Below, piece after piece: positions 1 through 60,503 of a stretch of 64,000 bases of DNA (position 1 is its first letter; each line of letters begins with the position of its first letter). The stretch is from the NCBI RefSeq assembly GCF_002920535.1, contig NZ_PQSS01000003.1, positions 186,001 through 250,000 of the forward strand. Reading direction: 5' to 3'. Below the pieces are notes generated by a model. It was not told the DNA's origin. It was given only the letters and a program-made list of their open reading frames with translations, and did no database searches. The position numbers and the translations under genes are program-made. The DNA is from Streptomyces sp. Ru71. Lineage in GTDB: Bacteria; Actinomycetota; Actinomycetes; Streptomycetales; Streptomycetaceae.

Positions 1-411
1 GGTCTCGGTGAGCGCGTGCTGCGCATGACGGCCGACTACACCGGCAAGCGGGAGCAGTTCGGGCATCCGATCGCCACGTTCCAGGCCGTCGCCGTGCAGG
101 CCGCCGACCGCTACATGGATCTGCGCGCGATGGAGGCCACGCTGTGGCAGGCCGCGTGGCGGTTCGACTCGGGCGTGCCGGGCGCGCTGCCGCTGTCCGG
201 TGACGTGGCCGTCGCCAAGATCTGGGCGGCGGAGGGCGTACGCCGGGTGGTGCAGACGGCGCAGCATCTGCACGGCGGCTTCGGTGCCGACGTCGACTAC
301 CCGCTGCACCGCTACCACGCCTGGGCCAAGCACCTGGAGCTGTCCCTGGGCCCGGCCGCGGCCCACGAGGAGACGCTGGCCGAGATGCTGGCGACCCACC
401 CGCTCGGCTGA
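1..411 (+). CDS. Acyl-CoA dehydrogenase, C-terminal part (5' end outside window)
   Basis: The frame is open from base 1 and stops at 409-411, so only the last 136 residues are present. They match the C-terminal four-helix domain of flavin-dependent acyl-CoA dehydrogenases: a TGKREQFG segment followed by FQAVAVQAADRYMDL near the beginning, and the QTAQHLHGGFGADVDYPLHRY segment that lines the FAD/substrate site near the end. The family oxidises acyl-CoA thioesters to enoyl-CoA with FAD. The substrate cannot be inferred because the N-terminal and middle domains are missing. A convergent rhodanese gene follows after 32 bp. Confidence 0.85.
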   Translation, partial: GLGERVLRMTADYTGKREQFGHPIATFQAVAVQAADRYMDLRAMEATLWQAAWRFDSGVPGALPLSGDVAVAKIWAAEGVRRVVQTAQHLHGGFGADVDYPLHRYHAWAKHLELSLGPAAAHEETLAEMLATHPLG

Positions 412-18172: not shown

Positions 18173-18856
18173 CTAGCGGCGCAGCGCCTCCGGCCGCCCT
18201 GCCTCCACGGGCCGGGTCGAGTCCAGGTGCGCCCAGACGATCAGCCGGTGGCTGTGACCCCACTCGGGATCGCAGGTGGTCAGCGTCAGATACCGGCCCG
18301 GACCGGTGTACCCCGACTTGGCAGGCACAGGGTCGATCACCTCGACGTCCGTCGGCACGGTTTTGTACGGCCCTTTGTCGATCCGATACGTGAACCACGT
18401 GGTGCCGTCCGTCAGCACCACGGCGTCCCCGCGCCGCAGCCGGGGGAAGTCCTTGAACGGGTCGCCGTAGGTCCGGCGGTGCCCGGCGACAGCGAAGTTC
18501 CCCGTCTGCCCCAGGCGTGCGCTGCCGGCGTAGTGGCCGAGCCCCTTCTTCAGGGTGCCGGTGGCCGTGCCCTGCAGCACCGGCTTGTTCCACGTGAAAC
18601 CGAGGCGCGGGATGTACATCACGGCGAACGGTTCGCCGTCTTGGTACGGCTCTGCCGTGGGCGCCTGCGGTGCCTGCCCCCGGGCCGGCCGCCCGGCCTC
18701 CTGCCGCGCCCACCGCTGGTGGAGGGCGTCGACCTGCTGGCCCATGGCGTGGTCGGCCCGCACGCCCGTCCAGAACAGCAGATGGACCACGAACAGGACG
18801 ATCACCGTGCCGACGGTGATGCAGAGCTCGCTGGCGGTTCTGACGATCACGCGCAC
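18173..18856 (-). CDS. Class E sortase (third, divergent copy)
   Basis: 227 residues from a GTG at 18856, 21 bp after the DUF881 gene, with GGGGAG upstream. One N-terminal membrane helix (residues 8-30, SELCITVGTVIVLFVVHLLFW) precedes the sortase domain, with VAGHRRTYG, TLTTCDPEWGHSHRLIVWA. Catalytic His, Cys and Arg are all present. It is more distant from the other two than they are from each other: it has Asp after the cysteine instead of Thr-Pro and lacks a long cytoplasmic tail. A one-mismatch parS-like sequence (GTTCCACGTGAAAC) lies inside the gene at 18587-18600. Confidence 0.9.
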   Translation of the reverse strand: MRVIVRTASELCITVGTVIVLFVVHLLFWTGVRADHAMGQQVDALHQRWARQEAGRPARGQAPQAPTAEPYQDGEPFAVMYIPRLGFTWNKPVLQGTATGTLKKGLGHYAGSARLGQTGNFAVAGHRRTYGDPFKDFPRLRRGDAVVLTDGTTWFTYRIDKGPYKTVPTDVEVIDPVPAKSGYTGPGRYLTLTTCDPEWGHSHRLIVWAHLDSTRPVEAGRPEALRR

Positions 18857-18877: not shown

Positions 18878-19657
18878 CTACTCCACAGGCTTCGCGTAGT
18901 GCAGATCCACTGTGCCCGAGTAGCCGGGAAGAGTCACCGTCCCGTCCTCGGTGACTTTCCAGCCGAGCCCGTAGACGTTCACGTACACCATGTAGTTCTG
19001 GATCGCCGGCGACTCGGCGAGCGCCTTCTGCAGCTTCTCCGGGTCCCCGACCGCGGTGATCTTGTACGGCGGTGAGTAGACGCGGCCCTGGAGGATCAGC
19101 GTGTTGCCCACGCAGCGCACGGCGCTGGTGGAGATCAGCCGCTGGTCCATCACCTTGATGCCCTTGGCGCCGCCCTGCCACAGGGCGTTCACCACCGCCT
19201 GCAGGTCCTGCTGGTGGATCACCAGGTAGTCCGGCTGGGGCTCGGGGTAGCCGGGCAGCTTCGCCGTGGCGTTGGGCGGGGCGTCGTTCAGCGTGACCGT
19301 GACCGCCTCGCCGGTGACCTTCTGGGTGCCGGCGCTCTTCTCCAGCCCGGCGAGCTTGTCGTCCTGCGCCTTGGTGCTGCCGTCGTCCCGCTCGGCCAGC
19401 GCCTCCACGTCACCGCGCAGCGCCGCGTTGGAGTCGTCCAGCTCCTTGTTCTTGTGGCTGCGCTCCTGGATCAGGTCCGACAGCTTCAGCAAGGAGGTGT
19501 CCGTACGGATATTGGTGCCCTTGGCCGTATTGAAACTGGTGAAGAAAATCAGGCCGGCGAGGGCGAAGACGGCGATCGTGAGCACCCGCACGGGCCGGAA
19601 GCGGGGCCCGCGCGCAGGGCTGGATTCCGTCCCGGGGGAGTCGGCAGAATTGCTCAA
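18878..19657 (-). CDS. DUF881 family membrane-anchored protein
   Basis: 259 residues from a TTG start at 19657, supported by AAGGAGA nine bases upstream. A cytoplasmic basic segment and one membrane helix (about residues 22-42, VRVLTIAVFALAGLIFFTSF) are followed by an extracellular coiled coil (about 55-105) and the DUF881 domain (VTVTLNDAP, QDLQAVVNALWQGGAKGIKVMDQRL, SPPYKITAVGDPEKL). Such proteins occur near division genes in actinobacteria and Firmicutes, and this one is divergent from crgA. The role is not established; an envelope or divisome accessory function is plausible. Confidence 0.88.
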   Translation of the reverse strand: MSNSADSPGTESSPARGPRFRPVRVLTIAVFALAGLIFFTSFNTAKGTNIRTDTSLLKLSDLIQERSHKNKELDDSNAALRGDVEALAERDDGSTKAQDDKLAGLEKSAGTQKVTGEAVTVTLNDAPPNATAKLPGYPEPQPDYLVIHQQDLQAVVNALWQGGAKGIKVMDQRLISTSAVRCVGNTLILQGRVYSPPYKITAVGDPEKLQKALAESPAIQNYMVYVNVYGLGWKVTEDGTVTLPGYSGTVDLHYAKPVE

Positions 19658-19798
19658 CGTACCCTTATCTCCTTCGGCGCCGCGGAAGCACTACGCTAAC
19701 GGACGCCCGGGGGAGCACTCAGTGTCCCCAGTTACGCTGCCCCGAGCCCGACCCCGTTACCTGCGCGGCCACGCAGCGCATCGACAGGAGAGACCCTC

Positions 19799-20053
19799 GT
19801 GCCGAAGTCACGTATCCGCAAGAAGGCCGACTTCACGCCGCCTCCGGCGAAGCAGGCAGCGACCATCAAGCTGGGCAACCGGGGCTGGGTCGCGCCGGTC
19901 ATGCTGGCGATGTTCCTGATCGGCCTGGCCTGGATCGTCGTCTTCTACGTGACCGACGGTTCGCTGCCGATCGACAGCCTGGACAACTGGAACATCGTGG
20001 TCGGCTTCGGATTCATCGCCGCCGGATTCGGCGTCTCCACGCAGTGGAAGTAG
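19799..20053 (+). CDS. crgA: Cell division protein CrgA
   Basis: 84 residues; GTG start after an ACAGGAGAG ribosome site. The basic N-terminus ([16 protein letters not shown]), two membrane helices (about 33-52 and 65-80) and the [21 protein letters not shown] ending are diagnostic of CrgA. CrgA is a small actinobacterial membrane protein that coordinates septation with wall synthesis and inhibits FtsZ-ring formation in Streptomyces. Its length matches the family. Confidence 0.96.
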
Positions 20054-20092
20054 CGGCCCCGGGCCGGTGAACCCAGCTCTGCCCAGGGGTAT

Positions 20093-20320
20093 CCGCTGAG
20101 TTATCCACAGGCCGTGCATTTATCCACACCCTGCCTGGGGAAAAGAAACGACGATCTGTGGATAACCCCTCGCGGCTTGACACCGGTACGACTGACACAC
20201 CACCGGCCGCACACCTGTTCGCCCCCTGCCTGACCTGCACAAACACGGGTCGGTGACAGGGGGCACAGCTGTTCTGGCACGCTGTGCACAAGATCGGGCA
20301 CCCGCTGTGGACAACCGTGT
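20093..20320. promoter_or_regulatory. Ectopic cluster of consensus DnaA boxes
   Basis: Within 215 bp lie four perfect DnaA boxes. TTATCCACA is at 20101-20109 and 20120-20128, its inverse TGTGGATAA at 20157-20165, and TGTGGACAA (inverse TTGTCCACA) at 20306-20314. They occupy the gap between crgA and the convergent rhomboid gene, about 18 kb from oriC. No gene is evident in the gap. DnaA-box clusters away from oriC that bind DnaA tightly are known in S. coelicolor. Confidence 0.8.
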
Positions 20321-20322
20321 GC

Positions 20323-21222
20323 TCAGGTGAGCTGCGAGGTTCTCAACAGGGTCATCACGACGATGGCGGCGAGCACCAGCGCACAGGTGCCGTACTGCAC
20401 CAGCGCCCTGCGCTCCCGCGGGGCGTGCAGCATGGCGTACCCGACGACGACCCCGGCGACGAGGCCGCCGATGTGGGCCTGCCAGGCGATGTGGAAACCC
20501 GAGTAGAAGGTGATCACCAGGTTGATCGCCAGCAGGGCGAGCACCGGCCGCATGTCGTAGTTGAGGCGGCGCAGCAGCACGGCCGTGGCGCCGAACAGGC
20601 CGAAGATCGCTCCGGAGGCACCGAGGGAGGGCTGGCGGGGGTCGGCGAGCAGATAGGTGAGCGCGCTGCCGGCCAGTCCGGAGACGAAGTAGAGCGTGAG
20701 GTAGCGGGCCCGGCCGAGGGCGGCTTCCAGGGGGCCGCCGATCCACCACAGGCTGAGCATGTTGAACAGGATGTGGACATAGCTGCCGTGCAGGAACATC
20801 GCCGTCAGCATCCGGTACCACTGCCCCTCGGCGACGCCCTCCAGGGAGCCGAGGGAGGGGACGTAGGCGCGGCCGAGCAGGAAGAAGCGGTCCTCGAAGG
20901 CGTCGCCCACGGAGATCTGCACCAGGAAGACGGCGAGGCAGAGGCCGATCAGGATCTTGGTGACCAGGCGGGGGTCCGCGCTGACCGTGCCGCCGGCCAG
21001 GGTGCGCGGACGGGCCGACACGGCCGTCGCACGGCCGGCCCCCGGGGACGTACCGCGGACGCAGTCGGGGCACTGGAAGCCGACCGAGGCGTTGACCATG
21101 CACTCCGGGCAGATCGGCCGGTCGCAGCGGACGCAGCGGATGCCCGTCTCCCGGTCGGGATGGCGGTAGCAGCCGGGCAGGCTGCCGTGGGCGTCCTGCG
21201 GGCTGCTCGGCGCCTGGTCCAT
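20323..21222 (-). CDS. Rhomboid family intramembrane serine protease with N-terminal zinc-ribbon-like region
   Basis: 299 residues from the ATG at 21222 (GAGGGGAT upstream). Residues 18-54 hold a Cys/His-rich, B-box-like segment (CYRHPDRETGIRCVRC, CPEC, CPDC) that probably binds zinc. A rhomboid domain follows (about 85-290) with the family WYRMLTAMFLHGSYVHILFNM loop, catalytic Ser203 in GASGAIFG and catalytic His250 in HIGGLVAG. Rhomboids cleave membrane helices. The substrate is unknown. Confidence 0.9.
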   Translation of the reverse strand: MDQAPSSPQDAHGSLPGCYRHPDRETGIRCVRCDRPICPECMVNASVGFQCPDCVRGTSPGAGRATAVSARPRTLAGGTVSADPRLVTKILIGLCLAVFLVQISVGDAFEDRFFLLGRAYVPSLGSLEGVAEGQWYRMLTAMFLHGSYVHILFNMLSLWWIGGPLEAALGRARYLTLYFVSGLAGSALTYLLADPRQPSLGASGAIFGLFGATAVLLRRLNYDMRPVLALLAINLVITFYSGFHIAWQAHIGGLVAGVVVGYAMLHAPRERRALVQYGTCALVLAAIVVMTLLRTSQLT

Positions 21223-21330
21223 GAGATCCCCTCGGTCGTCGCGTACACGTCCGTACCACCCGGGTACGAAAGGAACCGCCCTGCTCATCCTTACGGACGG
21301 GCAGGGCGATTGGTTCCCTTCGGGAGCACT

Positions 21331-21424
21331 CGGACGTTCGGCGCGTCCTCCGGTCCGGTTCCGGACGTTTCGGCGCGTCCTTCGGTCCGGTCCCGGACGT
21401 TCGGCGCGTCCTCGGTCCGGTCCC
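21331..21424. repeat. 31-bp tandem repeat, three copies
   Basis: Three imperfect direct repeats of 31-32 bp, starting CGGACGTT and containing CGGCGCGTCC and GGTCCGG, at 21331-21361, 21362-21393 and 21394-21424. They lie directly downstream of the leftward cyclophilin gene stop (21440). Confidence 0.85.
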
Positions 21425-38349: not shown

Positions 38350-38499
38350 CGTAAGCCGCCTCCTGCTGTTGCCGGCGCTTGTCGCCCTGCTTCGCTTCGT
38401 CGTCCGTCTCGGTGTCATCGGCCCCGGGGAGGGGAAGGACACCGGAGACCAGTCTGACGCACCGCACTGACAGTAGGTGCCTGTCGGGGTCAAGTCGTG

Positions 38500-39120
38500 A
38501 CGAGGGGCGGTCGGTCAACCGACAGCGAGTTGTGCACAGGGCCCGCTTCGAAACGAATTCCGCGCTCTCTATCGTCGTTGGTAGTAGTAGGGCCTGTGGA
38601 TACCGTGGATAACTTCGTTTTCCCAGCTCAGAGCGGGAATTTTGTCCACGGGGCCTGTGGGTGGAGGCGGTGGACAACCGGGGCCCTCTGTGGAGAACGG
38701 AAAGTTCTGCACACACCGTGCACAGGCTGAGGCGAGTTCTCCCCAGCGGCGTCCCCAGTTTTACCCGGGTTTCCCACAGCCCAACCCGGCAGCTTCGTGT
38801 GACGGCTTTCACTCGACGCGGTGAGAAGGCGCGTCGCCTTGCCGAACAGTGGACAGACTTGTGGAGAAGCGGGCGATCGCTGGGGACAACCGGGCTCAGC
38901 CTGTGGGTTGCCCGTGGACAACTTCGTGCACAGGGTGTGGACCGCCGAGTTGTCCACACCCTGTGGATCTTCTTCGTCCACGGATCCACAGGCACCTGAG
39001 CTGCGCCGATGCCGTTCCCCCAGCCTTCCCTGTGGACACGATCTGGACAACTCGGCAGTCCCCAGGATGTGGACGCGAAAAAGTCGCCGAATCTGTGGAG
39101 AGAGGCCGTAACCCGGCATC
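38500..39120. other. Chromosomal replication origin oriC
   Basis: The roughly 1-kb dnaN-dnaA gap has no gene and holds many DnaA-box-like nonamers in both orientations. Examples are TTGTGCACA 38530, TGTGGATAC 38595, CGTGGATAA 38604, TTGTCCACG 38642, GGTGGACAA 38669, TGTGGAGAA 38689 and 38860, CGTGGACAA 38913, the perfect TTGTCCACA 38950, GGATCCACA 38982, TGTGGACAC 39031 and TCTGGACAA 39042. Streptomyces origins are known to contain many weak boxes with the core TTGTCCACA. No long AT-rich tract is visible. Outside the boxes, 38350-38500 and 39120-39344 show nothing clear. Confidence 0.93.
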
Positions 39121-39344
39121 TAATCGAACAAGAGATGACAGATGTACGACGGCGGGTGGGGGGCGTTGTCCGGCCGGTACGGGTCTTCGTATGGGTAGCG
39201 GAGGCCGGCTGGGGCCTGGGGACGGGGTGATGGCGGGTCCGGGAGGCGCCGTTCCGCGGGCTGGAGGGCTTGCCGGGGCGCCGTTCCGACGGCCCGGGGT
39301 GCCCTTCGCGGGGGCCGGGGCGGCTGTGAGGTCCGTAAACGCCG

Positions 39345-45521: not shown

Positions 45522-45535
45522 GTTTCACGTGAAAC
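45522..45535. other. parS site 1
   Basis: A perfect GTTTCACGTGAAAC palindrome, 159 bp before the chosen parA start and inside the longest possible parA frame (it would encode FHVKR). Confidence 0.93.
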
Positions 45536-45630
45536 GTCGCTCACTGCTGCACGGCATCATCAGTCGGGGCCGCGCTGCGGCCGAACCCCGCGACCGTAAG
45601 CCCCTCGGTTCACTCGATGAGGGAACGGAG

Positions 45631-45639
45631 TTGTCCACA
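45631..45639 (+). promoter_or_regulatory. Consensus DnaA box upstream of parA
   Basis: A perfect TTGTCCACA, with a second TCCACAGA element 20 bp further on (45652-45659), lies just before the chosen parA start. It could link segregation-gene expression to DnaA. Confidence 0.5.
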
Positions 45640-45693
45640 GAGGTGGATTTCTCCACAGAAGACCAGACCTCACTGGTTCACGACCCCGAAGGC

Positions 45694-46767
45694 ATGCGAG
45701 GCTCTGTTCATTGCGAGCCTGAAGTCGAGGAGAGTGAATCCTTGCGGTCCGACGCCAACATCGCGGGACCGATGACCGATCCGGTCCCCGGTCCCCGTAC
45801 TGAGTCGTTGGGGGAGGATGTTTCACGTGAAACACCGCCCCCCATGGACGACACTCCGATCGGTCGTGCTGCCCAACTGGCGGTAGAGGCTCTTGGCCGC
45901 GCCGGCGAAGGTCTGCCGCGACCCGAGCAGACCCGTGTGATCGTGGTCGCCAACCAGAAGGGCGGCGTCGGCAAGACGACGACGACCGTCAACCTTGCCG
46001 CCTCGCTGGCTCTCCACGGCGGCCGAGTGCTGGTGATCGACCTCGATCCGCAGGGCAACGCTTCCACCGCGCTGGGCATCGACCATCACGCGGAAGTCCC
46101 TTCCATCTACGACGTGTTGGTCGACAGCAGGCCGCTCGCCGAGGTCGTGCAGCCGGTCCCCGATGTCGAGGGCCTCTTCTGCGCCCCGGCCACCATCGAT
46201 CTGGCCGGTGCCGAGATCGAGCTGGTGTCCCTGGTGGCGCGAGAGAGCCGGCTCCAGCGGGCGATCCAGGCGTACGAGCAGCCGCTGGACTACATCCTCA
46301 TCGACTGCCCGCCCTCGCTGGGCCTGCTGACGGTGAACGCGCTCGTCGCGGGCCAGGAGGTCCTGATCCCCATTCAGTGCGAGTACTACGCGCTGGAGGG
46401 CCTGGGCCAACTGCTGCGCAACGTCGACCTGGTGCGGGGCCACCTCAACCCCACGCTGCATGTGTCGACCATCCTGCTCACCATGTACGACGGCCGGACG
46501 CGCCTGGCGTCCCAGGTCGCCGAAGAGGTGCGCACCCACTTCGGTGACGAGGTGCTGCGGACGAGCATTCCCCGCTCGGTCCGTATCTCCGAGGCACCGA
46601 GCTACGGGCAGACGGTTCTGACCTACGATCCGGGGTCGAGCGGTGCCCTGTCCTATCTTGAGGCGGCACGAGAGATCGCGCTGAGGGGCGTCGGCGTCAG
46701 CTATGAGGCTGCGCACGCCCACATCGGCGCACAGAGCAATCCGAACATGGTGGAGGGGATTCAGTGA
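45694..46767 (+). CDS. parA: Chromosome partitioning ATPase ParA
   Basis: 357 residues from the ATG at 45694 (GAAGG just upstream). Other in-frame starts are GTG 45520 at parS 1 and ATG 45844, after which all conserved sequence lies; the true start is uncertain. The deviant Walker A NQKGGVGKTTT, DLDPQGNASTALG and LIDCPPSLGLLTVNAL identify ParA/Soj. The non-conserved acidic N-terminus contains parS 2, read as VSRET. ParA assembles on DNA and moves ParB-origin complexes, including in sporulating hyphae. The stop overlaps parB (GTGA). Confidence 0.93.
   Translation: MRGSVHCEPEVEESESLRSDANIAGPMTDPVPGPRTESLGEDVSRETPPPMDDTPIGRAAQLAVEALGRAGEGLPRPEQTRVIVVANQKGGVGKTTTTVNLAASLALHGGRVLVIDLDPQGNASTALGIDHHAEVPSIYDVLVDSRPLAEVVQPVPDVEGLFCAPATIDLAGAEIELVSLVARESRLQRAIQAYEQPLDYILIDCPPSLGLLTVNALVAGQEVLIPIQCEYYALEGLGQLLRNVDLVRGHLNPTLHVSTILLTMYDGRTRLASQVAEEVRTHFGDEVLRTSIPRSVRISEAPSYGQTVLTYDPGSSGALSYLEAAREIALRGVGVSYEAAHAHIGAQSNPNMVEGIQ
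45820..45833. other. parS site 2
   Basis: A perfect GTTTCACGTGAAAC, inside the 5' part of parA in the frame encoding VSRET. Confidence 0.95.
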
Positions 46768-47861
46768 GCGAGCGACGAAGGGGGCTGGGCCGTGGACTAG
46801 GCGCACTGATCCCTGCTGCCCCGACCGAGAAGACGCCGGCCGCCACAGCGCTGGGAGGTTCGGCGTCCACCTCCCCCGCAGCGGTTCCGCTGCTGACGAG
46901 CGACCGCGGAGTGGCCGCGGCCAAGGTGGCCACGCTGCCGCCGCCTGTTTCACGTGAAACCGAGCCGGCGACCGATGCGGTGGAGACGCCGGTGGCTCCT
47001 GTCGGGGCCCACTTCGCGGAGATCCCCCTCGACGCCATCAGGCCGAACCCCCAGCAGCCGCGTACCGTCTTCGACGAGGACGCGCTGGCGGAGCTCGTGA
47101 CCTCCATCAAGGAGGTCGGCCTCCTCCAGCCGGTCGTCGTACGGCAGGTGGGCTCGGCCCAGTACGAACTCATCATGGGTGAGCGGCGTTGGCGGGCCTG
47201 CCGCGAGGCGGGTCTGGAGGCCATCCCGGCGATCGTGCGGGCCACGGAGGACGAGAAGCTCCTCCTGGACGCGCTGTTGGAGAACCTGCACCGGGCTCAG
47301 CTGAACCCGCTGGAAGAGGCCGCCGCCTACGACCAGCTGCTGAAGGACTTCAACTGCACGCACGACCAGCTGGCGGACCGCATCGGCCGGTCCCGCCCTC
47401 AGGTCTCCAACACCCTGCGGCTGCTGAAGCTCTCGCCCAAGGTGCAGAACCTGGTGGCCGCGGGTGTGCTCTCCGCCGGGCATGCCCGGGCGCTGCTCGG
47501 TGTCGAGGACTCCGAGGAGCAGGACCGGCTGGCCCACCGGATCGTGGCCGAGGGGCTTTCGGTGCGGTCGGTGGAGGAGATCGTGACCCTCATGGGGTCG
47601 CGGCCGCAGAAGGCTCAGCGCGCCAAGGGCCCGCGGGCCGGCGGTCGGCTCTCCCCCGCGCTGTCCGACCTGGCGACCCGGCTGTCGGACCGCTTCGAGA
47701 CGCGGGTGAAGGTGGACCTCGGGCAGAAGAAGGGCAAGATCACTGTCGAGTTCGCCTCCGTCGAGGATCTCGAACGGATCCTCGGCACGCTCGCCCCGGG
47801 CGAGGGACCGGTCCTGCAGCGGAGCCTTCAGGACGACGGCGAGGAGCAGTCCGACGACTGA
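46764..47861 (+). CDS. parB: Chromosome partitioning protein ParB
   Basis: 365 residues; the GTG overlaps the parA stop. MSERRRGLGRGLGALIP is the ParA-contacting start; a variable region with parS 3 (VSRET at residues 62-66) follows. The CTPase/N-terminal domain has IPLDAIRPNPQQPR and LIMGERRWRACREAG (arginine-rich box), then LLENLHRAQLNPLEEA and the HTH LADRIGRSRPQVSNTLRLL that reads parS. The C-terminal dimerisation region ends the protein. It loads at parS and slides as a CTP clamp to form the origin complex. Confidence 0.97.
   Translation: MSERRRGLGRGLGALIPAAPTEKTPAATALGGSASTSPAAVPLLTSDRGVAAAKVATLPPPVSRETEPATDAVETPVAPVGAHFAEIPLDAIRPNPQQPRTVFDEDALAELVTSIKEVGLLQPVVVRQVGSAQYELIMGERRWRACREAGLEAIPAIVRATEDEKLLLDALLENLHRAQLNPLEEAAAYDQLLKDFNCTHDQLADRIGRSRPQVSNTLRLLKLSPKVQNLVAAGVLSAGHARALLGVEDSEEQDRLAHRIVAEGLSVRSVEEIVTLMGSRPQKAQRAKGPRAGGRLSPALSDLATRLSDRFETRVKVDLGQKKGKITVEFASVEDLERILGTLAPGEGPVLQRSLQDDGEEQSDD
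46947..46960. other. parS site 3
   Basis: A perfect GTTTCACGTGAAAC within parB coding sequence, in the frame encoding VSRET, in the variable region before the conserved domain. Confidence 0.95.
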
Positions 47862-47878
47862 TCGCCGGCCTTGAGCGG

Positions 47879-47907
47879 GCCGTGTCCGGTGTGTACCGGA
47901 ACACGGC
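47879..47907. terminator. parAB terminator hairpin
   Basis: GCCGTGTCCGGT pairs with ACCGGAACACGGC (one bulge) around GTGT, 17 bp after the parB stop and followed by CTCTTTG. Confidence 0.8.
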
Positions 47908-48014
47908 TCGCTCTTTGCTTTCTGCCGGTATCGAGGGAATCGCATCGTGGATACGATGCGTTGGGGTATGGCGCATCCACCTGGCAGGCACGTTTCAGTG
48001 GGAGGCGGGGAGCC

Positions 48015-48272
48015 GTGCGAACGATGAGCCGGACCGGACTGGTGAGCGCGGGACTGGGCCTGGGCGCGGTCGGCGGCTTCGTCGGCAGCCTGCTCAGGGA
48101 ACGAAGTGCTCTGACAGCCGCCCGCGACGCCGCGGGCGAAGGAAGCGAGGAACAGCCTTCATGGGGCGTCGGCTCGTACCGCTCACGCTGGACAACCTTC
48201 AGGACCTTCCCAAGCGCTGTCGCTCGTGTGTCTTCTGGGAGCTCGATCCCGTCAGTGGCGAAGCCGCGGTAA
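48015..48272 (+). CDS. Possible small membrane protein overlapping the GNAT gene
   Basis: 85 codons from a GTG directly after a very strong GGAGGCGGGGAG ribosome site. Residues 5-27 (SRTGLVSAGLGLGAVGGFVGSLL) form a hydrophobic Gly-rich helix; the remainder is Ser/Arg-rich and of doubtful coding quality where it overlaps the next gene (48161 on) by 112 bp. It could be a genuine small protein or a leader peptide coupling translation into the acetyltransferase gene. Confidence 0.4.
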   Translation: MRTMSRTGLVSAGLGLGAVGGFVGSLLRERSALTAARDAAGEGSEEQPSWGVGSYRSRWTTFRTFPSAVARVSSGSSIPSVAKPR

Positions 48273-48778
48273 AGGCGGGGACACCGGCCCTGGAGAAGGA
48301 AGCCTGGATCTCCGCGGTCCTGCTGGACTGGGGCTCCTGCGGTCGCGTCGTCTATGTCGACGACAACCCCGTGGGCTATGTGCTCTACGCGCCGCCCGCG
48401 TATGTGCCCCGCTCGACGGCCTTTCCGACGAGCCCCGTCTCGCCGGACGCCGTGCAGCTGATCACCGGCTTCATCCTGCCGGGCTACCAGGGGCAGGGAT
48501 TGGGCCGGGTGATGGTCCAGACGGTGGCGAAGGATCTGCTGCGCCGTGGGTTCAAGGCCATCGAGGCGTTCGGGGACGCGCGCTGGAAGGAGCCGGCCTG
48601 TCTGCTGCCCGCGGACCATCTGCTGGCCGTGGGCTTCAAGACGGTCCGCCAGCATCCGGCGCATCCGCGGCTGCGGCTGGAGCTGCGCTCCACGCTGTCC
48701 TGGAAGGAGGACGTGGAGCTGGCGCTGGACCGGTTGTTGGGCGCGGTGCAGAAGGAGCCGGCGCTGCGGCCGCTGTGA
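48161..48778 (+). CDS. GNAT family N-acetyltransferase
   Basis: 205 residues; ATG at 48161 with GAGGAA upstream. The acetyl-CoA-binding motif A is GFILPGYQGQGLGRVMVQTV, preceded by the GYVLYAPPAYVP strand; a CRSCVFWELDP motif near residue 20 and the C-terminal SWKEDVELALDRLLG helix are shared with similar proteins at this locus. The substrate is unknown. The gene is convergent with trxA across a strong terminator. Confidence 0.88.
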   Translation: MGRRLVPLTLDNLQDLPKRCRSCVFWELDPVSGEAAVKAGTPALEKEAWISAVLLDWGSCGRVVYVDDNPVGYVLYAPPAYVPRSTAFPTSPVSPDAVQLITGFILPGYQGQGLGRVMVQTVAKDLLRRGFKAIEAFGDARWKEPACLLPADHLLAVGFKTVRQHPAHPRLRLELRSTLSWKEDVELALDRLLGAVQKEPALRPL

Positions 48779-48808
48779 TGTTCTGAGGATGCGATCCTCT
48801 GAGGATGT

Positions 48809-48842
48809 GAAAGGGGCCGGCCCATACGGGCCGGCCCCTTTC
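48809..48842. terminator. Bidirectional terminator next to parS 4
   Basis: GAAAGGGGCCGGCCC and its complement form a perfect 15-bp stem around ATAC, between convergent GNAT and trxA genes. parS 4 starts 3 bp further on. Confidence 0.9.
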
Positions 48843-48844
48843 AT

Positions 48845-48858
48845 GTTTCACGTGAAAC
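48845..48858. other. parS site 4
   Basis: A perfect GTTTCACGTGAAAC in the GNAT-trxA gap, ending one base before the trxA stop. Confidence 0.95.
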
Positions 48859-48859
48859 G

Positions 48860-49186
48860 TCAGCCGATGAAGTCCTCAAGGTCGCGCACGATCGCGGCCT
48901 TCGGCTTGGCGCCGACGATCGTCTTGGCGACCTCGCCACCCTGGTAGACGTTCAGCGTCGGGATGGACATGACGCCGTACTTGGCGGCCGTACCCGGGTT
49001 CTCGTCGATGTTGAGCTTGACGACCTCGATCTTGTCGCCGTACTCGGCCGCGATCGCCTCCAGCGACGGGGCGATCTGACGGCACGGACCGCACCAGGCG
49101 GCCCAGAAGTCCACCAGGACGGGCTTGTCGCTCTTGAGGACGTCCTGCTCGAAGGAGTCGTCGGTCACGTTCTTCAGGTCGGCCAC
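48860..49186 (-). CDS. trxA: Thioredoxin
   Basis: 108 residues from a GTG. The active site WCGPC (Cys32, Cys35), the cis-proline in SIPTLNVYQGG and the VDFWAAWCGPCRQIAP strand define a classical thioredoxin. It reduces protein disulfides using electrons from TrxB. It lies 57 bp downstream of trxB and is likely co-transcribed. Confidence 0.97.
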   Translation of the reverse strand: MADLKNVTDDSFEQDVLKSDKPVLVDFWAAWCGPCRQIAPSLEAIAAEYGDKIEVVKLNIDENPGTAAKYGVMSIPTLNVYQGGEVAKTIVGAKPKAAIVRDLEDFIG

Positions 49187-49243
49187 GGCGGGGCTCTCCT
49201 TAATCGGGTTGGTGCGTGGGGCGGAAGGGGTCAGACAGAGCGA

Positions 49244-50215
49244 TCAGACGGAGGTCTTCTCGGGCTCGGCCTGCTGCTCGTTGTCGGCAAGAGCGGCGAG
49301 GAAGCGCTCGGCGTCCAGGGCGGCGGAGCAGCCGGTGCCGGCCGCGGTGATCGCCTGGCGGTACGTGTGGTCGACCACGTCACCGGCGCCGAAGACACCG
49401 GTGAGGTTCGTCCGGGTGGAGGGGGAGGCGACCTTCAGGTAGCCCTCCTCGTCCAGGTCCAGCTGGCCCTTGAACAGCTCGGTGCGCGGGTCGTGGCCGA
49501 TCGCGATGAACAGACCGGTCACCGGCAGGTCGGAGAGCTCGCCGGTCTTGACGTTGCGCAGCTTCAGGCCGGACAGCTTCTGGTCGCCCTGGATCTCGGC
49601 CACCTCGCTGTCCCAGACGAACTTGATCTTCGGGTCGGCGAAGGCGCGCTCCTGCATGGCCTTGGAGGCACGCAGGGTGTCGCGGCGGTGGACGATGGTC
49701 ACGGACTTGGCGAACCGCGAGAGGAAGGTGGCCTCCTCCATCGCGGTGTCACCGCCGCCGATCACGGCGATGTCCTGGTCCTTGAAGAAGAAGCCGTCGC
49801 AGGTGGCGCACCACGAGACACCGCGGCCGGAGAGCGCGTCCTCGTTCGGCAGGCCCAGCTTGCGGTGCTGGGAGCCGGTGGTGATGATCACGGCCTTGGC
49901 CTGGTGGACCGTGCCCGCGGTGTCGGTGACGGTCTTGATCTCGCCGGTCAGGTCGACGGAGACGACGTCGTCGGGGATCAGCTCGGCACCGAAGCGCTCG
50001 GCCTGGGCGCGCATGTTGTCCATGAGCTCGGGGCCCATGATGCCGTCGCGGAAGCCGGGGAAGTTCTCCACCTCGGTGGTGTTCATCAGCGCACCGCCGG
50101 CGGTGACGGCGCCCTCGAACACCAGGGGCTTCAGCGACGCGCGCGCGGTGTAGAGCGCCGCCGTGTAGCCGGCGGGCCCGGAGCCGATGATGATCACGTT
50201 ACGGACGTCGCTCAC
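49244..50215 (-). CDS. trxB: Thioredoxin reductase
   Basis: 323 residues from the GTG at 50215 (GAGGAA upstream). FAD motif [15 protein letters not shown], redox-active Cys136-Ala-Thr-Cys139 in [16 protein letters not shown] motif [10 protein letters not shown], and the C-terminal [24 protein letters not shown] low-molecular-weight, NADPH-dependent enzyme that recycles thioredoxin. In S. coelicolor trxB is controlled by the SigR/RsrA thiol-stress system; I did not identify that promoter here. Confidence 0.97.
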
Positions 50216-50342
50216 GGCTTGATTCCTCGTCTCTGGACTGCGTCGTACGGCCGGTGGAGCCCCTTTCAGAACTCTCACCCCACCCAACGGATCCTAAGGG
50301 GCGCGCATTCCCACCGTGTCCGGGCACACGGCGACGCCGGAC

Positions 50343-51350
50343 TCAGGGACGCGTGTACGACTTCTTCAGCAGCACCTTGGCGGTGCCCGCCGACGGGTGT
50401 GCCACGCAGGTGGCGTCCATGAGATAGGCGTCGACCCGTCGGCTGTCGGAGGCGCCGGGCAGTACGACGAGCAGTGTGTCCTTGCCCTCGAAGACGCCGT
50501 CCTCGGTGGCCAGGGCCGCGTCGTCGCGCCCGATCCCCTGGCGGACGCAGTCGGGGACCGTGGCCTGCGAGCGGAACACCCTGGGCCCCTCGGTGCCGGT
50601 CCTGGAGTCGGCCCCGAAGCTGTGCGGGGTGCGTGAGCCGTCGTCCGACTTGAGCTGCTGAGCGAGGAGCCGGTCGACCTGCTGCGGCAGCCTCGCCTCG
50701 GAGAAGGTGTCCGAGGCGGTGGACTGATGCTGCTGTGCGGTCGTGCCCGAGGTGCCGCCGGTCAGCGAGGACACCAGGAGAGCACCGAGCCCCACGGCCG
50801 CGGCGGCGCAGGCGGCGCCGATGGCCGCGAGCGTACGGCGGCTGCGGCGAGCGGACCGCTTGCGACCCGGCCCGGTCGTGGCGGGGCGGGCGTGGCCGCT
50901 GGGGCGACTGGTGGTGGGGCGGTCCGCGGTGGGGTGCTCGTTGGCGGGGCGGTCCGCGGTGGGGCGTTCGGTGGCGTGGCGTTCGGTGGCGGGCGCTGTT
51001 TCACGTGAAACGTGCGCCCCTTCGTGGGGAGCCTGCGTGCCGTGATCGCCGGCCGAGGAGGCGGCCGGGGCTTCGGAGGGCTGGTCCGGAGCGGTGGCGT
51101 TCAGCAGGGCCTCGGCCGCGAGGGCGGCGTCGATGCGTCCCGCCACGTCGGCCGGCATCCGGGGAGGGCCCGGCAGCGTGCCGAGCAGTCCACGGATCTC
51201 CTCCAGCGACGCATAGACGTCCGCGCACAGCTCACAGGAGCCGAGATGGCGCCGTACGTCCGTGGTCCGTGTCGGTGGGAGCAGTCCCTCGGCGAGGTCG
51301 GAGATCTCGGCGACATCCGGGTGCCCGGCCATGTCCGTCGTGGATGTCAC
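50343..51350 (-). CDS. Anti-sigma factor with zinc-binding (ZAS-like) motif
   Basis: 335 residues; the ATG overlaps the sigma gene stop. An N-terminal zinc anti-sigma motif HLGSCELC (His-x3-Cys-x2-Cys, about residues 35-42) lies in a sigma-binding fold. A long Pro/Thr/Arg/His linker has ERPTADRP-type repeats. One membrane helix follows (about 172-195, LAAIGAACAAAAVGLGALLVSSL), then an extracellular domain with two cysteines. parS 5 lies inside the gene (VSRET near residue 114). It probably sequesters the adjacent ECF sigma factor. Confidence 0.88.
   Translation of the reverse strand: MTSTTDMAGHPDVAEISDLAEGLLPPTRTTDVRRHLGSCELCADVYASLEEIRGLLGTLPGPPRMPADVAGRIDAALAAEALLNATAPDQPSEAPAASSAGDHGTQAPHEGAHVSRETAPATERHATERPTADRPANEHPTADRPTTSRPSGHARPATTGPGRKRSARRSRRTLAAIGAACAAAAVGLGALLVSSLTGGTSGTTAQQHQSTASDTFSEARLPQQVDRLLAQQLKSDDGSRTPHSFGADSRTGTEGPRVFRSQATVPDCVRQGIGRDDAALATEDGVFEGKDTLLVVLPGASDSRRVDAYLMDATCVAHPSAGTAKVLLKKSYTRP
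50998..51011. other. parS site 5
   Basis: A perfect GTTTCACGTGAAAC in the anti-sigma gene's linker region, again read as VSRET on the gene strand. Confidence 0.95.
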
Positions 51351-52072
51351 GCTCGCCCACCTCCGCCCTTCACAGCAGCTGAGTCGCTCGGTCCTGCCTC
51401 ACCGGAACCCGGGTCGTCGGGTTCCGCTGCCGGTGGGACGGATGTCCCGTGCACCCGGTTCCGTCCCGCGTCCGGTTTTCCGCTGTCGGAGTTGTTTTCC
51501 GGCCGCAGATGGGTGAGGAGGGGAACCAGTCTGGCCCTGCCCCGGGCGCAGCGGCTCTTCACGGTTCCCGTCGGCACGTCGAGGATGCGGGCCGCCTCGG
51601 CGACGGGGTAGCCCTGCATGTCCACGAGCACGAGGGCGGCCCGCTGGTCGGCCGGGAGGGTGCCGAGCGCCTCCAGCAGCTGCCGGTGCAGATCGTTGCG
51701 CTCCGCGGGGGCCGAGGCCGATTCGTGGGGCTCCAGCAGCTGCTCCAGCCGCTCGGTGTCGTCGACCGGCGACGTCTTGCGGGAGGCGGCCTTGCGGGCG
51801 CGGTCGAGACAGGCGTTCACGGTGATCCGGTGCAGCCAGGTCGTGACCGCCGACTGTCCCCGGAAGGTGTGGGCGGCGCGGTAGGCGGACACAAGGGCGT
51901 CCTGGACCGCGTCGGCGGCCTCCTCACGGTCCCCGAGCGTGCGCAGGGCCACCGCCCACAACCGGTCCCGGTGGCGCCGCACGAGCTCACCGAAGGCGTC
52001 GGGGTCCCCCTTCACATGGCGGGCGAGCAGCTCCTGATCGCTCACACCGTCGAATCCACTGCCCTCCGCCAT
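51347..52072 (-). CDS. sigM: ECF RNA polymerase sigma factor SigM
   Basis: 241 residues from the ATG at 52072 (GAGGGGG upstream). Region 2 covers about 25-95 (DPDAFGELVRRHRDRLWAVALRTLGDREEAADAVQDALVSAYR, TWLHRITVNACLDRAR) and region 4 about 130-185 (LPADQRAALVLVDMQGYPVAEAARILDVPTGTVKSRCARGRARL). A Pro/Ser-rich tail of about 50 residues is extra. The cognate anti-sigma overlaps the 3' end. The name follows the Streptomyces gene at the same locus. It is probably envelope- or redox-responsive, since trxBA is next to it. Confidence 0.93.
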   Translation of the reverse strand: MAEGSGFDGVSDQELLARHVKGDPDAFGELVRRHRDRLWAVALRTLGDREEAADAVQDALVSAYRAAHTFRGQSAVTTWLHRITVNACLDRARKAASRKTSPVDDTERLEQLLEPHESASAPAERNDLHRQLLEALGTLPADQRAALVLVDMQGYPVAEAARILDVPTGTVKSRCARGRARLVPLLTHLRPENNSDSGKPDAGRNRVHGTSVPPAAEPDDPGSGEAGPSDSAAVKGGGGRA

Positions 52073-52098
52073 CTGACCCCCTCCCCCTCGGTGAGATG

Positions 52099-53817
52099 TC
52101 AGCCCTTGAAGACCACGTCGGTGATGGCCTGCTTCCAGCCCGCGCTGCTGTATCCGTCCGAGGGCGCGCTGGGCACCGCGGTGATCCACAACAGGACGTA
52201 CTGCGTCTTCACCGTCTTGGACGCCTTCACGGTGAGCGAGGTGCCGCTCGTGGTGGCGGTGCCGATCTCCTTCATGCCGTCGACCGACGTGGACGGCGTC
52301 AGGGAGTCGGTGGCGTACAGATGGACGGTCGTGTGGTCACCGGCGTACCGGAGCGCTATCGACGCGGACTGGACCTCCTGCGCCGAGCCGAGGTCGTAGA
52401 CGATGCCGACGCCCGGCTTGTACGGAGCGAGGGTGGGCCCTTCGTTGTAGCGCTTGGTGCGCCAGTAGGTGGAGCTGTCGCTGTCGTAGGTGTTGTCCAC
52501 GTCCTCGGGAGCCTGGGGGGATCCCTCCGCCACGTACTCCTGGGCGTGCTTCACGGCGATCGGCTTGGCCGGCTTCGTCTGCTCGCTGCCCTTGCCGTTG
52601 CCGTCCGTGGTCTGGGTCTGGTTCGTCTCGTCGGACGTGCCGCCCCGGTCCATCAGGGCGTCCGCGAGCTGCCAGCTGCCGAGCCCGAGCGCCGCGATCA
52701 GCAGGGCGGACACCGCCCACTTCAGCGCCTTGCCGGTGCGGCTCTGCAGCGGAGGCGGCGGGGAGGGCACCGGCTGGGTGACGCCGGGGTGCGGCGCCGG
52801 GCGGCCGTAGGAGCCCTGCTGGTACGTCGTGCGCTGGTACTCGGGCGGCGCGGTGAACGCAGGCTCCGGCGGGCGGATGCGGGGCATCTCGCCGATCGCC
52901 TTGACCAGCTCCTCCGGGGTGGTGCACGGCGCCTCGTGCCGGGAGGCGGTGGCGCCGTCGTTGGCGAGCGCACGCATCGCGAGCTCGGACAGGCCACGGT
53001 GGACGCCGGCCCGCACCTGGTCGGGCGGGATCAGACCGAGGTCCTTGGGCAGCCCGGACAGGCCGTAGGCGTCGTTCTCGTACGGCCAGCGCTGGGTGAG
53101 CGCCGCGTACAGCAGCGCGCCGATCGCCTCGGTGTCGGTGCGCTGCGGGGTGTCGGAGCTGATCCCGCGCAGCGCGGCGTTCACGGCGAGGCCGCGGATG
53201 CGCCACTGACCGGTGGAGGTGCGCAGCACGGCGTTGGGGTTCAGGCGCAGATGGGCGAGGCCCTCGCGGTGGGCGGCGGCCATGGCGGCGGCGATCTGGC
53301 TGACCATCTGGTAGGCGTCGTGCGGCTCCAGCGGGCCGCCGGACAGCAGGGTGGTCAGTTCGGTGGCGTCGGGCAGCCATTCGTGGACGACGTAGACGAG
53401 GTCGTTCTCCTCGACGGCGTCCAGGACCTGCACGAAGCGGGGGTCGCCGAGCAGGGCGGACGAGCGGGCCGCGGCCAGCACGGACCGGGCCCGGGCGTGG
53501 TCGGCCGGCAGGACATGGATGCCGACGGCGCGGCGCAGTTTCTCGTCGACCGCACGCCAGCTGCTGAATCCGTCCAGACGGGTGACGCACTCCTCAAGCC
53601 GGTAGCGTCTGGCGAGTTTGTGACCGCTGTGCAGTTCGGGCGGTGAGGCCTTTCCGGGACCGTCCGTCCCGCCACTCCCCTGTGCCTCGTCGTTGTCCGT
53701 GTCCCGCTCCCGGTTCTGGGCCACCCCGTCGGCCGTGGACTGGTCCGCCTCCGCGGTCAGCGACTTGTCGCCGCTGTTGTCTGCCACGTCGACGGCAGCC
53801 GTGCTCCGTTCCGCCAC
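52099..53817 (-). CDS. Pseudokinase-transmembrane protein associated with MurJ
   Basis: 572 residues from a GTG (AGGAA upstream). A kinase fold (about 60-330) is recognisable but degenerate. The ATP lysine is lost (VGIHV), the catalytic loop reads HLRLNPNAVL instead of HRDxxxxN, and DFG is replaced (IRGLAVNAAL), so it is a pseudokinase. After a Pro linker comes a membrane helix (about 395-415) and an extracellular discoidin-like beta domain (about 450-572). In mycobacteria the equivalent domain is fused to MviN and recruits FhaA when phosphorylated by PknB. The separate murJ gene lies 136 bp upstream. Confidence 0.85.
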   Translation of the reverse strand: MAERSTAAVDVADNSGDKSLTAEADQSTADGVAQNRERDTDNDEAQGSGGTDGPGKASPPELHSGHKLARRYRLEECVTRLDGFSSWRAVDEKLRRAVGIHVLPADHARARSVLAAARSSALLGDPRFVQVLDAVEENDLVYVVHEWLPDATELTTLLSGGPLEPHDAYQMVSQIAAAMAAAHREGLAHLRLNPNAVLRTSTGQWRIRGLAVNAALRGISSDTPQRTDTEAIGALLYAALTQRWPYENDAYGLSGLPKDLGLIPPDQVRAGVHRGLSELAMRALANDGATASRHEAPCTTPEELVKAIGEMPRIRPPEPAFTAPPEYQRTTYQQGSYGRPAPHPGVTQPVPSPPPPLQSRTGKALKWAVSALLIAALGLGSWQLADALMDRGGTSDETNQTQTTDGNGKGSEQTKPAKPIAVKHAQEYVAEGSPQAPEDVDNTYDSDSSTYWRTKRYNEGPTLAPYKPGVGIVYDLGSAQEVQSASIALRYAGDHTTVHLYATDSLTPSTSVDGMKEIGTATTSGTSLTVKASKTVKTQYVLLWITAVPSAPSDGYSSAGWKQAITDVVFKG

Positions 53818-53953
53818 CGTCGTTCCTGCCTCCCCAACTCTTGCGCGCCGTACGACGACGAGCGCGCCGTCCGACGCCGAAACCAATTGTGCCCACAGTC
53901 CGCCGCTATGCACGACACACGGTGGCGGCCGTTGGTTGTGCGCCTACCCCCTC

Positions 53954-56287
53954 TCAGCGGCCCAGTCGTCCGCGCACCATGCCGACGAGCGAGTTCAGTT
54001 CCTCGATACGCATCCTGCGGGCGGCGACGTAGAAGATGCCGAGCAGGACCGCCCCGCCGACGATCAGGGCCGCGAAGGAGCCGCCCACGCCCTGGCCGAG
54101 CGTGTGGCCGATGCCGTAGCAGGCGGCGCCGCTGAGCGCCGCGGCCGGCACCGAGGCGATGCACAGCCGCGCGTAGGTGCGCAGTACGCGGGCCCCGTCC
54201 AGGTCGCCGCCCAGCCGCTTGCGCAGCCGGGACCAGGCGACGCCCACGCCGATGGCGTAGGCCAGGCCGTAGGCGGCGGCCATGCCGATCACCGCCCAGC
54301 GGGCCGGCAGCAGGAAGTAGCACAGTGCCGAGGCGCCGGCGTTGACGGCGGCCACGATGACCGTGTTGTAGAAGGGCGTGCGGGTGTCCTCGTAGGCGTA
54401 GAACGCGCGCAGGACGACGTACTGCACCGAGTAGGGGATCAGGCCGAGGCCGAAGGCCATCAGCATGTAGCCCATGTTGGTGGCCTCGCTGGTGCCCGAC
54501 GAGCCGAAGATCAGCGTGCACATCGGGATGCCGAGGGCGAGGAAGCCGAAGGCGATGGGCACGATGGCGACGGCGGTCGTGCGCAGGCCCTGCGAGATGT
54601 CGTCGCGGACGGCGCCGGCGTCGTCCTCGGCCGCCGAGCGGGAGATGCGCGGCAGCAGGGCGGCCATCAGCGACACCGTGATGATGGCCTGGGGCAGGCC
54701 CCAGATCAGCTGGGCGTTGGCGTAGGCGGCGAAGCCGGTGCCGTCGATCGGGGACTCTTTGCCCGCGGCCGTGGAGAGGTTGGTGACGACGATGGCCCCG
54801 GCCTGGTTCGCGAGGACGAACAGGAACGTCCACTTGGCCAGGGTGACGGCCTTGCCGAGGCCGTGACCCCGCCAGTCGAAGCGCAGCCGCAGCTTGAACC
54901 CGGTCTCGCGCAGGTAGGGGATCATCGCCAGGGCCTGGACGACGAGGCCCAGCAGGATGCCGATGCCGAGCAGGCGCTGGCCCTCCGGCGGGATGTTGGT
55001 CACCTTCATGCCGGAGTCCGCGGCGGTGCCGTAGACCCAGATGAACATGCCCAGCGTGATGATGATGACGATGTTGTTCAGGACCGGGGTCCACATCATC
55101 GCGCCGAACCTGCCGCGTGCGTTGAGCACCTGGCCCATCACGACATGGATGCCCATGAAGAAGATGGACGGCACGAAGTAGTGGACGAAGGTGATGCCCA
55201 CGTCATTGGCCGCCGGATCACCGGCGACGGACGGGGACAGCAGCCGCACCAGCAGCGGCGCGGCGAAGACCGCCGCCACGGTCAGCAGGCCCAGCGCCAC
55301 CATGACCAGCGTCAGCAGCCGGTTGGCGTAGGCCTCGCCGCCGTCGTCGTCCTCCTTCATCGCGCGCACCAGCTGTGGCACGAAGACGGAGTTCAGACCG
55401 CCGCCGACGGTCAGGATGTAGATCATCGTCGGCAGCTGGTAGGCGACCTGGAAGGTGTCGCCGAGCAGACCGACGCCCAGCGCGGAGACGATCAGCGCGG
55501 AACGGATGAAGCCGGTGAGGCGGGAGACCATCGTGCCCGCCGCCATCACGGCACTCGACTTCAGCAGGCCGGAGGCCCGCCCGCCCTTCTTCGCCGCGGC
55601 GGCGGGAGCGGCCGGTGCGGCCGGTGCCGCCCCCGCCTCGGATGCCAGGTCCGCGTCCGCGGCGACGGGCTGCGCGGTGGGCGCCTGGCCCAGGTACAGC
55701 GTCTGCTCGGCGCTCTGCGCGGGCGGCGCCTGCTGCGGGCCCGCGGGCTCCTGTCCGGCGCCGGGCGCCGGCGCCGGTCCGGGAACGGACGGCGGCTGCT
55801 GGTCGTACGACGGGTGGCCGGCGCTCTGCTGCTGGTCGCGGAAGAGATGAGCGAAGGCGTCCGGCTCGTGACGCTCCTCACCGGCCTGGGTGACCAGGTC
55901 GTCCACGCCCACGTACTGGGTGGTGCGGGGGTCGTCGCCGTAGGGCAGGTACTGGGTCGGGCCGTCCGGCTCCGGGGCGGGCGTCTGCGCCCACACGCGC
56001 GGGTCCGGGGCGTACGGCGACTGCGGCGGCTGCGCGTACAGCTGCTGCGGCGGCGGGACGGTGCCCGGCGGGGGCGGCGGGTGCGCGGCACGGTCGTAGA
56101 GCGCCTCGGCGACCGGGTCCTGGGCGGAGAGGTCCTGTCCGCGGTAGGGGTCCTGGTCGTAGGCGTCCTGGAGGTACATGTCCGCCGGGTGCTGCGGCGG
56201 GACCTGGCCGTTCTCGGGCGGCGGGCCCTCGGGGCGGCCCGAGCTGCCCACGGCCTGGCCGCGGTCACCGTCGTACGGCGCGTTCAT
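53954..56287 (-). CDS. murJ: Lipid II flippase MurJ/MviN
   Basis: 777 residues, ATG start. Residues 1-240 are a long cytoplasmic, disordered region rich in Pro, Gln, Asp and Tyr. The rest is the MOP-superfamily flippase with about 14 helices: SSAVMAAGTMVSRLTGFIRSALI, GGGLNSVFVPQLVRAMKEDD, and VLRAFYAYEDTRTPFYNT near helix 10. It exports lipid II for peptidoglycan synthesis. It lies between the DUF6049 gene and the pseudokinase gene, all leftward, which suggests an operon. Confidence 0.95.
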   Translation of the reverse strand: MNAPYDGDRGQAVGSSGRPEGPPPENGQVPPQHPADMYLQDAYDQDPYRGQDLSAQDPVAEALYDRAAHPPPPPGTVPPPQQLYAQPPQSPYAPDPRVWAQTPAPEPDGPTQYLPYGDDPRTTQYVGVDDLVTQAGEERHEPDAFAHLFRDQQQSAGHPSYDQQPPSVPGPAPAPGAGQEPAGPQQAPPAQSAEQTLYLGQAPTAQPVAADADLASEAGAAPAAPAAPAAAAKKGGRASGLLKSSAVMAAGTMVSRLTGFIRSALIVSALGVGLLGDTFQVAYQLPTMIYILTVGGGLNSVFVPQLVRAMKEDDDGGEAYANRLLTLVMVALGLLTVAAVFAAPLLVRLLSPSVAGDPAANDVGITFVHYFVPSIFFMGIHVVMGQVLNARGRFGAMMWTPVLNNIVIIITLGMFIWVYGTAADSGMKVTNIPPEGQRLLGIGILLGLVVQALAMIPYLRETGFKLRLRFDWRGHGLGKAVTLAKWTFLFVLANQAGAIVVTNLSTAAGKESPIDGTGFAAYANAQLIWGLPQAIITVSLMAALLPRISRSAAEDDAGAVRDDISQGLRTTAVAIVPIAFGFLALGIPMCTLIFGSSGTSEATNMGYMLMAFGLGLIPYSVQYVVLRAFYAYEDTRTPFYNTVIVAAVNAGASALCYFLLPARWAVIGMAAAYGLAYAIGVGVAWSRLRKRLGGDLDGARVLRTYARLCIASVPAAALSGAACYGIGHTLGQGVGGSFAALIVGGAVLLGIFYVAARRMRIEELNSLVGMVRGRLGR

Positions 56288-56330
56288 GGTTACCCCACCT
56301 CATCGTCCCGGGCCCACGGCCACGTCATCC

Positions 56331-58974: not shown

Positions 58975-59007
58975 CCTGGTGCCCCGGTGCACGTACCCTC
59001 TTCTGTT

Positions 59008-60450: not shown

Positions 60451-60461
60451 GGTCGTGGAAC

Positions 60462-60491: not shown

Positions 60492-60503
60492 GGGAACGAC
60501 GAA

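Follow-up and report, generated by a model that had tools for sequence, protein, structure and literature searches.

A conserved array of DnaA boxes beside crgA, near oriC, in Streptomycetaceae and other actinobacteria

The gap between crgA and a neighboring rhomboid gene in Streptomyces sp. Ru71 holds several DnaA boxes close together, outside oriC and above chance expectation, and boxes were found past crgA throughout the family sampled and in most loci sampled from other families of the class. We consider it reasonably likely that the gap carries a DnaA-binding array close to oriC, most probably orthologous to cluster H69 of Streptomyces coelicolor, that would restrain re-initiation of replication. 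Binding of DnaA is probable from the match to the box consensus, and a restraining effect on initiation is probable by analogy with published clusters; our confidence in this reading derives mainly from conservation. In its own genome, the locus is most likely the orthologue of a known cluster, and it is the deep conservation and the spacing rule that are new.

In the window (the whole 64,000-nucleotide stretch of DNA that was analyzed), the gap contains seven sites with at most two mismatches to the DnaA box; Table 1 gives the individual boxes described here. A sequence-only reading of this DNA had called four perfect boxes, at 20101, 20120, 20157, and 20306; all four are exact and lie at those positions. 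The convergence of crgA and the rhomboid gene around the cluster, also proposed there, was borne out by the strands of the open reading frames and by Pfam matches to CrgA and Rhomboid. Two further sites had not been listed, the inverse TTTTCCCCA at 20136 and the inverse TTGTGCACA at 20283. Some mechanically called open reading frames overlap the 269-bp gap. Rfam gave no match up to an E value of 1 in positions 19500 to 21000, and neither a promoter nor a T-run terminator was found between 20000 and 20400. According to the available part of PMC4285127, TTATCCACA is a high-affinity box in several bacteria, as is TTGTCCACA in S. coelicolor.

Table 1. Features of the crgA–rhomboid region (window positions)
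Feature	Position	Strand	Basis
crgA, cell-division protein CrgA, 84 aa	19799..20053	+	ORF; Pfam PF06781 CrgA, E 7.4e-29
Array-bearing gap between crgA stop (20053) and rhomboid stop (20323)	20054..20322	.	269 bp; column conservation (81 sequences)
DnaA box a, TTATCCACA	20101..20109	+	exact
DnaA box b, TTATCCACA	20120..20128	+	exact; 19 bp past box a
Weak inverse box w, TTTTCCCCA (top strand TGGGGAAAA)	20136..20144	-	2 mismatches
DnaA box c, inverse TTATCCACA, ATC often just before	20157..20165	-	exact
Conserved G+C-rich hairpin GCCCCCTG...CAGGGGGC between boxes c and d	20221..20264	.	sequence, RNA folds, conservation
Weaker inverse box TTGTGCACA	20283..20291	-	1 mismatch; 126 bp past box c
DnaA box d, inverse TTGTCCACA	20306..20314	-	exact; 149 bp past box c
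Rhomboid-family protease gene, convergent with crgA	20323..21288	-	ORF; Pfam PF01694 Rhomboid, E 7.7e-39

A chance origin of the array was rejected on the basis of its excess over expectation, shuffles, and backward-motif controls. The window contains three copies of TTATCCACA, all in the crgA–rhomboid gap, against 0.04 expected, a number reached by none of 100 shuffles. The genome as a whole (8.23 Mb, 192 contigs) contains 53 exact matches to TTRTCCACA, compared with 13 for the backward-read motif, and in only two places do at least three exact boxes fall within 300 bp: the crgA–rhomboid gap, with 4 in 214 bp, and C34:40727-41007, with 3 in 281 bp. A search for the pattern TTGTCCACA followed by TTATCCACA returned no matches. 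Close pairs of exact boxes also occur in this genome at C22:77177-77218, C49:16884-16915, C74:22778-22798, and C34:49794-49827.

Conservation was examined in 80 crgA loci from named genomes of the family, which with the window gave 81 sequences, and in 75 added loci that span 16 of the 17 genus groups (all except g10). Two genomes were drawn twice (L043/L089 and L068/L087). Lack of conservation in related species had been named beforehand as a sign against the cluster; when the gap was aligned across relatives, the array was found after crgA in all 156 family loci (154 distinct). Scored as an exact inverse box that has, in the 70 bp before it, a + box with no more than one mismatch, the array lies within 600 bp of the crgA stop in 155 of the 156, the exception being L161; when exact + boxes are required and L161 is counted, the figure is likewise 155 of 156. 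The exact inverse box preceded by a + box within 600 bp (155 of 156 loci) is TTATCCACA in 154. In L161, the same array sits at +668 to +890, with its inverse box at +723, after an extra stretch (L161 positions 654-1320) between the crgA stop and the array in which no convincing gene was seen. All 81 sequences carry an exact + TTRTCCACA 41 to 57 bp before an exact inverse TTATCCACA, and the gap of L066 also holds boxes.

Other members of the array recur with differing regularity. A further exact inverse box lies downstream of box c in 78 of the 81 sequences, at 149 bp in 54 of them including the window, and an exact second + box is present in 16, 13 bp on in 15 of those. Across the 155 scored loci, the motif GGGGA[ACT]AA (box w) precedes box c by 17 to 21 bp in 130, and an inverse box with at most one mismatch follows box c by 110 to 194 bp in 138; the 126-bp distance from box c to the weaker inverse box is recurrent in the family. 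The pattern TTATCCACA-N30-60-TGTGGATAA matched in 274 of 394 family genomes from 11 of 17 genera, against 0 for the backward control, and several genomes without a match carry TTGTCCACA or a mismatch at box a. Exact boxes are concentrated beside crgA: in the 69 of the 75 added loci with more than 14 kb downstream, 227 fall in the first 500 bp past crgA versus 80 in the remaining 14 to 19 kb fetched, and for TTATCCACA the corresponding numbers are 169 versus 19 elsewhere in the fetched DNA. One genome, G101, has three crgA copies within about 20 kb (contig C1, 3954759-3975048), each with a matching box pair nearby and some 28 to 48 kb from dnaA.

The distances between boxes follow a rule in the family. 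The + boxes fall in three bands, 29 to 37, 41 to 47, and 52 to 57 bp before box c, with 272 of 274 inside them, and the commonest distance from one + box to the next is 12 to 13 bp when one mismatch is allowed. Measured from the first + box, box c is only ever 41 to 47 or 52 to 57 bp away, never 48 to 51. On a tree built from crgA and its upstream DNA (80 sequences, comprising 79 named loci and the window, with L020 left out), this distance changed at least 46 times and switched between the two bands at least 12 times. Banding of this sort would be expected from a protein complex whose register is about one helical turn. The distance from box c to box d, at 148 to 151 or 159 to 160 bp in 77 of 78 sequences, agrees with such a register. 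As proof of phasing it was set aside as weak in favor of the spacing from the first + box to box c: sequences in the interval share 76% identity on average, few indels cancel, and the tree shows only four switches. Indels are few in the c–d stretch, and its spacing is therefore the weaker evidence.

The same spacing rule bears on whether the inverted boxes might be mere arms of an RNA hairpin acting as a terminator, with DnaA uninvolved, which we find hardly credible. In the predicted RNA fold, boxes a and c do form the two sides of a long stem, and the gap folds better than its shuffles (z scores of -2.8 and -2.6). However, the arms keep the DnaA consensus in the alignments, varying mainly between A and G at position 3 of the + boxes and without free covariation; the second + box, box w, and box d lie outside that stem; no T-run terminator was found; and a spacing rule is not expected for a loop. 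The separate hairpin at 20221-20264 was recognized in 86 of 156 family loci, which give 78 distinct rows. There is hardly any variation in the outer stem; in the inner stem, 489 of 618 cells pair and eight double changes occur, which is little covariation. This hairpin is possibly a two-way terminator. It was rejected as an account of the array, as it leaves the boxes unexplained.

Boxes past crgA extend beyond the family. Sixty loci from 31 other families of the class, picked by hand over families from the crgA matches, contain 141 boxes with at most one mismatch in the 250 bp past crgA. The controls gave 50 boxes in the other 169,581 bases of these loci, 16 for the backward motif, and an average of 3.85 (maximum, 12) over 100 dinucleotide shuffles. 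At least one box follows crgA in 55 of the 60 loci and 29 of the 31 families, and at least two do so in 48 loci. No box was found in the 250 bp past crgA in five of the 60 (L201, L207, L215, L216, and L220); in one family, f4, seven of eight loci have inverse boxes only, and two have a single box. In a sample of 119 genomes from the phylum, crgA was found in 31, ten within the class and 21 outside it, and was not found in the other 88. Twenty of the 21 out-of-class loci were used (G605 was left out); with several crgA matches among them weak (E values to 9.8e-4), boxes lie in the 250 bp past crgA in 14, at least two in six, and none in the remaining six. These loci hold 24 boxes in the 5,000 bases past crgA versus 10 in the other 54,886. 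The site is dispensable in lineages with one box or none.

The typical order is two + boxes, an inverse box that is often weak (TTTTCCCCA or TTATCCCCA), and a further inverse box. Outside the family, the typical array can be written (+)12-13(+)10(-)12-13(-), and the commonest distances between boxes with at most one mismatch are 12 to 13 bp from + to +, 10 to 11 or 23 bp from + to inverse, and 12 to 13 bp from inverse to inverse. The inverse box typically lies 10 to 11 bp past the second + box; the steps in the window are wider (19 and 16 bp). The recurrent order and spacing, together with the wide spread, suggest a defined DnaA complex and not merely a passive sink, a possibility that the sequence-only reading had not raised. 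Titration of DnaA by the boxes, as that reading proposed, is plausible, but neither a spacing rule nor a lasting link to crgA would be required of a passive sink, which counts against sequestration of the plain kind. In the part of PMC13270200 available, domain I of actinomycete DnaA is reported to be dimeric.

The persistence of the boxes at the end of crgA also invites a different explanation, which is the chief rival to a replication-restraining array and which we regard as unlikely. DnaA bound to the facing boxes might act as a roadblock to RNA polymerase arriving from one side or from both, such that the DnaA level would set the 3' end of, or read-through from, crgA and the convergent gene and, by way of CrgA, would link initiation with septation. 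In favor of this, most loci across the phylum have boxes past crgA even though the next gene differs (rhomboid-like and thiolase-like proteins were among those recognized by eye), and by a rough open reading frame rule the next gene is convergent with crgA in 38 of 59 loci. Orientation-dependent termination of transcription by a DnaA-box complex is, judging by its title, the subject of a paper cited in PMC10950094. Against a roadblock, the boxes follow no clear orientation rule, with 56 + and 40 - boxes where the genes converge and 17 + and 26 - boxes where they are codirectional (15 + and 13 - without family f4; L184 was left out). Moreover, L161 keeps the whole array even though 668 bp separate the crgA stop from its first box, and the separate hairpin could itself terminate transcription.

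The array lies in a segment centered on oriC. In the window, oriC is found between dnaN and dnaA, with its box region at 38530-39102, about 18 kb from the array. The array is not oriC itself: its flanks are crgA and rhomboid genes, it has only seven sites, and the box region between dnaN and dnaA lies elsewhere. In the text available from PMC3411110 and PMC3937824, the oriC regions of S. coelicolor and S. albus, respectively, lie between dnaA and dnaN and have about 19 boxes. When up to one mismatch is allowed, the oriC of the window (38401-39150) has 12 boxes, of which one is exact (TTGTCCACA); none is TTATCCACA, in agreement with the sequence-only reading, which had found the strong form missing from oriC. 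Exact boxes in the window number four after crgA versus one in oriC. In the 19 of 69 family loci whose fetched DNA includes an oriC-like region, 66 exact boxes lie past crgA and 46 in an 800-bp stretch of the oriC-like region, where weaker boxes abound (283 boxes when up to one mismatch is allowed). With so modest an excess and an oriC richer in weak boxes, the idea that the array fills before oriC is a guess.

By subtraction of coordinates on one contig, with no wrap-around, crgA lies about 12 to 123 kb from dnaA in 31 genomes; in five further genomes it is at the far contig end from dnaA, as a circular wrap would give, and in one the two genes are on different contigs. This origin-proximal position in the 31 genomes measured would also be expected if the boxes were a relic of a wider ancestral origin region, kept by the closeness of crgA to dnaA and now without function. 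We judge such inertia very improbable: the exact boxes and their spacing persist while spacers, flanks, and neighboring genes diverge, and unselected sites would decay.

Clusters of DnaA boxes outside oriC are reportedly present in S. coelicolor, where Smulczyk-Krawczyszyn et al., in a 2006 study (J Bacteriol) said to have covered that one species, are reported to have named three of them H69, H24, and D78. D78, not H69, reportedly had the highest affinity for DnaA and was the cluster deleted, and its deletion is said to have raised the ratio of origin to chromosome end. An effect of H69 itself is therefore conjectural. The other dense cluster of the Ru71 genome (C34:40727-41007, or 2728-3039 of L081) sits by eye in a gap between pheA-like and serS-like genes, with two + TTATCCACA boxes 13 bp apart, a weak inverse TTGTCCCCA, and a far inverse TTATCCACA; lying before serS, it is presumably the equivalent of D78. 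In the last 900 bp before serS, boxes are present in 11 of 13 family genomes. Outside the family, the same interval shows a cluster in none of seven genomes, with one stray single-mismatch site, and in two of the seven (G405 and G482) the best serS match is 41 to 45% identical and may not be an orthologue.

The available parts of two papers place SCO3857 on cosmid H69 (PMC3878966) and identify CrgA of S. coelicolor as SCO3854 (PMC4416010), and for this reason the crgA–rhomboid locus is probably H69. Orthology of the array to H69, in line with the synteny that the sequence-only reading had suggested, is the most likely assignment; no S. coelicolor records are among the 80 named family loci. The array is of the same kind as H69, H24, and D78, namely, a non-oriC box cluster near oriC in the same family, and it differs in its spread over class and phylum, its box order, and its spacing rule, none of which was seen for those clusters in the literature found.

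Resemblances to better-described systems are limited to organization. In the part of PMC4585315 available, datA of Escherichia coli is described as non-coding, always near oriC, and carrying several DnaA boxes with conserved position and spacing. The array shares several DnaA boxes, constrained spacing, and proximity to oriC, and no sequence homology is claimed; datA has features of its own, requiring an IHF site at set spacing and acting by hydrolysis of DnaA-ATP (same portion of PMC4585315). Clusters in Bacillus subtilis (Okumura et al. 2012, as cited in the available text of a review and a research paper, PMC5742627 and PMC10950094) and in S. coelicolor are described in those sources as datA-like and as repressing untimely initiation; the B. 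subtilis clusters are likewise chromosomal boxes, in a different phylum and at different loci. DARS1 and DARS2 of E. coli are also non-coding regions with DnaA boxes outside oriC, but according to the part of PMC4585315 available they reactivate DnaA instead of restraining it. A DARS-like role for the array, in which ordered boxes would promote ADP-ATP exchange on DnaA and raise the active form, would suit an arrangement of several boxes with constrained spacing. It appears quite improbable given the negative action ascribed to the published clusters of Streptomyces and B. subtilis (PMC5742627 and PMC10950094, parts available).

A restraining array might work as follows. DnaA would occupy the strong boxes a, b, c, and d, and an ordered complex would probably form across the + boxes and the inverse boxes that face them. 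Lying about 18 kb from oriC, the array would be copied just after initiation, and the doubled array would then withdraw or inactivate DnaA. This loss of DnaA would restrain re-initiation in the manner proposed for datA and for the B. subtilis and Streptomyces clusters. More tentatively, and somewhat less likely than not, the crgA-side array could be an ancestral actinobacterial element of replication control, a counterpart of datA in which a DnaA nucleoprotein of set geometry (tandem boxes 12 to 13 bp apart facing inverse boxes 10 bp away) forms and in which the link to crgA ties the DnaA cycle to septation.

Not much is known of the means by which actinobacteria, the group that includes the main antibiotic producers, limit initiation. 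In the literature within reach on DnaA boxes, Streptomyces clusters, crgA, and titration, which excluded most subscription papers, no crgA-linked array across actinobacteria was recognized; papers naming both crgA and "DnaA box" drew no link between them in the parts available; and the literature searched turned up no cis element common to the phylum besides oriC. With crgA as its landmark in most sampled genomes, a short DnaA array of this kind is a direct experimental target, and if the array acts through crgA, replication would be linked to cell division.

Other repeated elements were seen in the window. A parS site with a single mismatch lies at 18587-18600, 1.2 kb upstream of crgA, and seven perfect parS sites (GTTTCACGTGAAAC) lie at 45522-60524, beyond oriC. 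A 32-bp G+C-rich tandem repeat is present in three copies at 21331-21424, between the rhomboid and cyclophilin genes.
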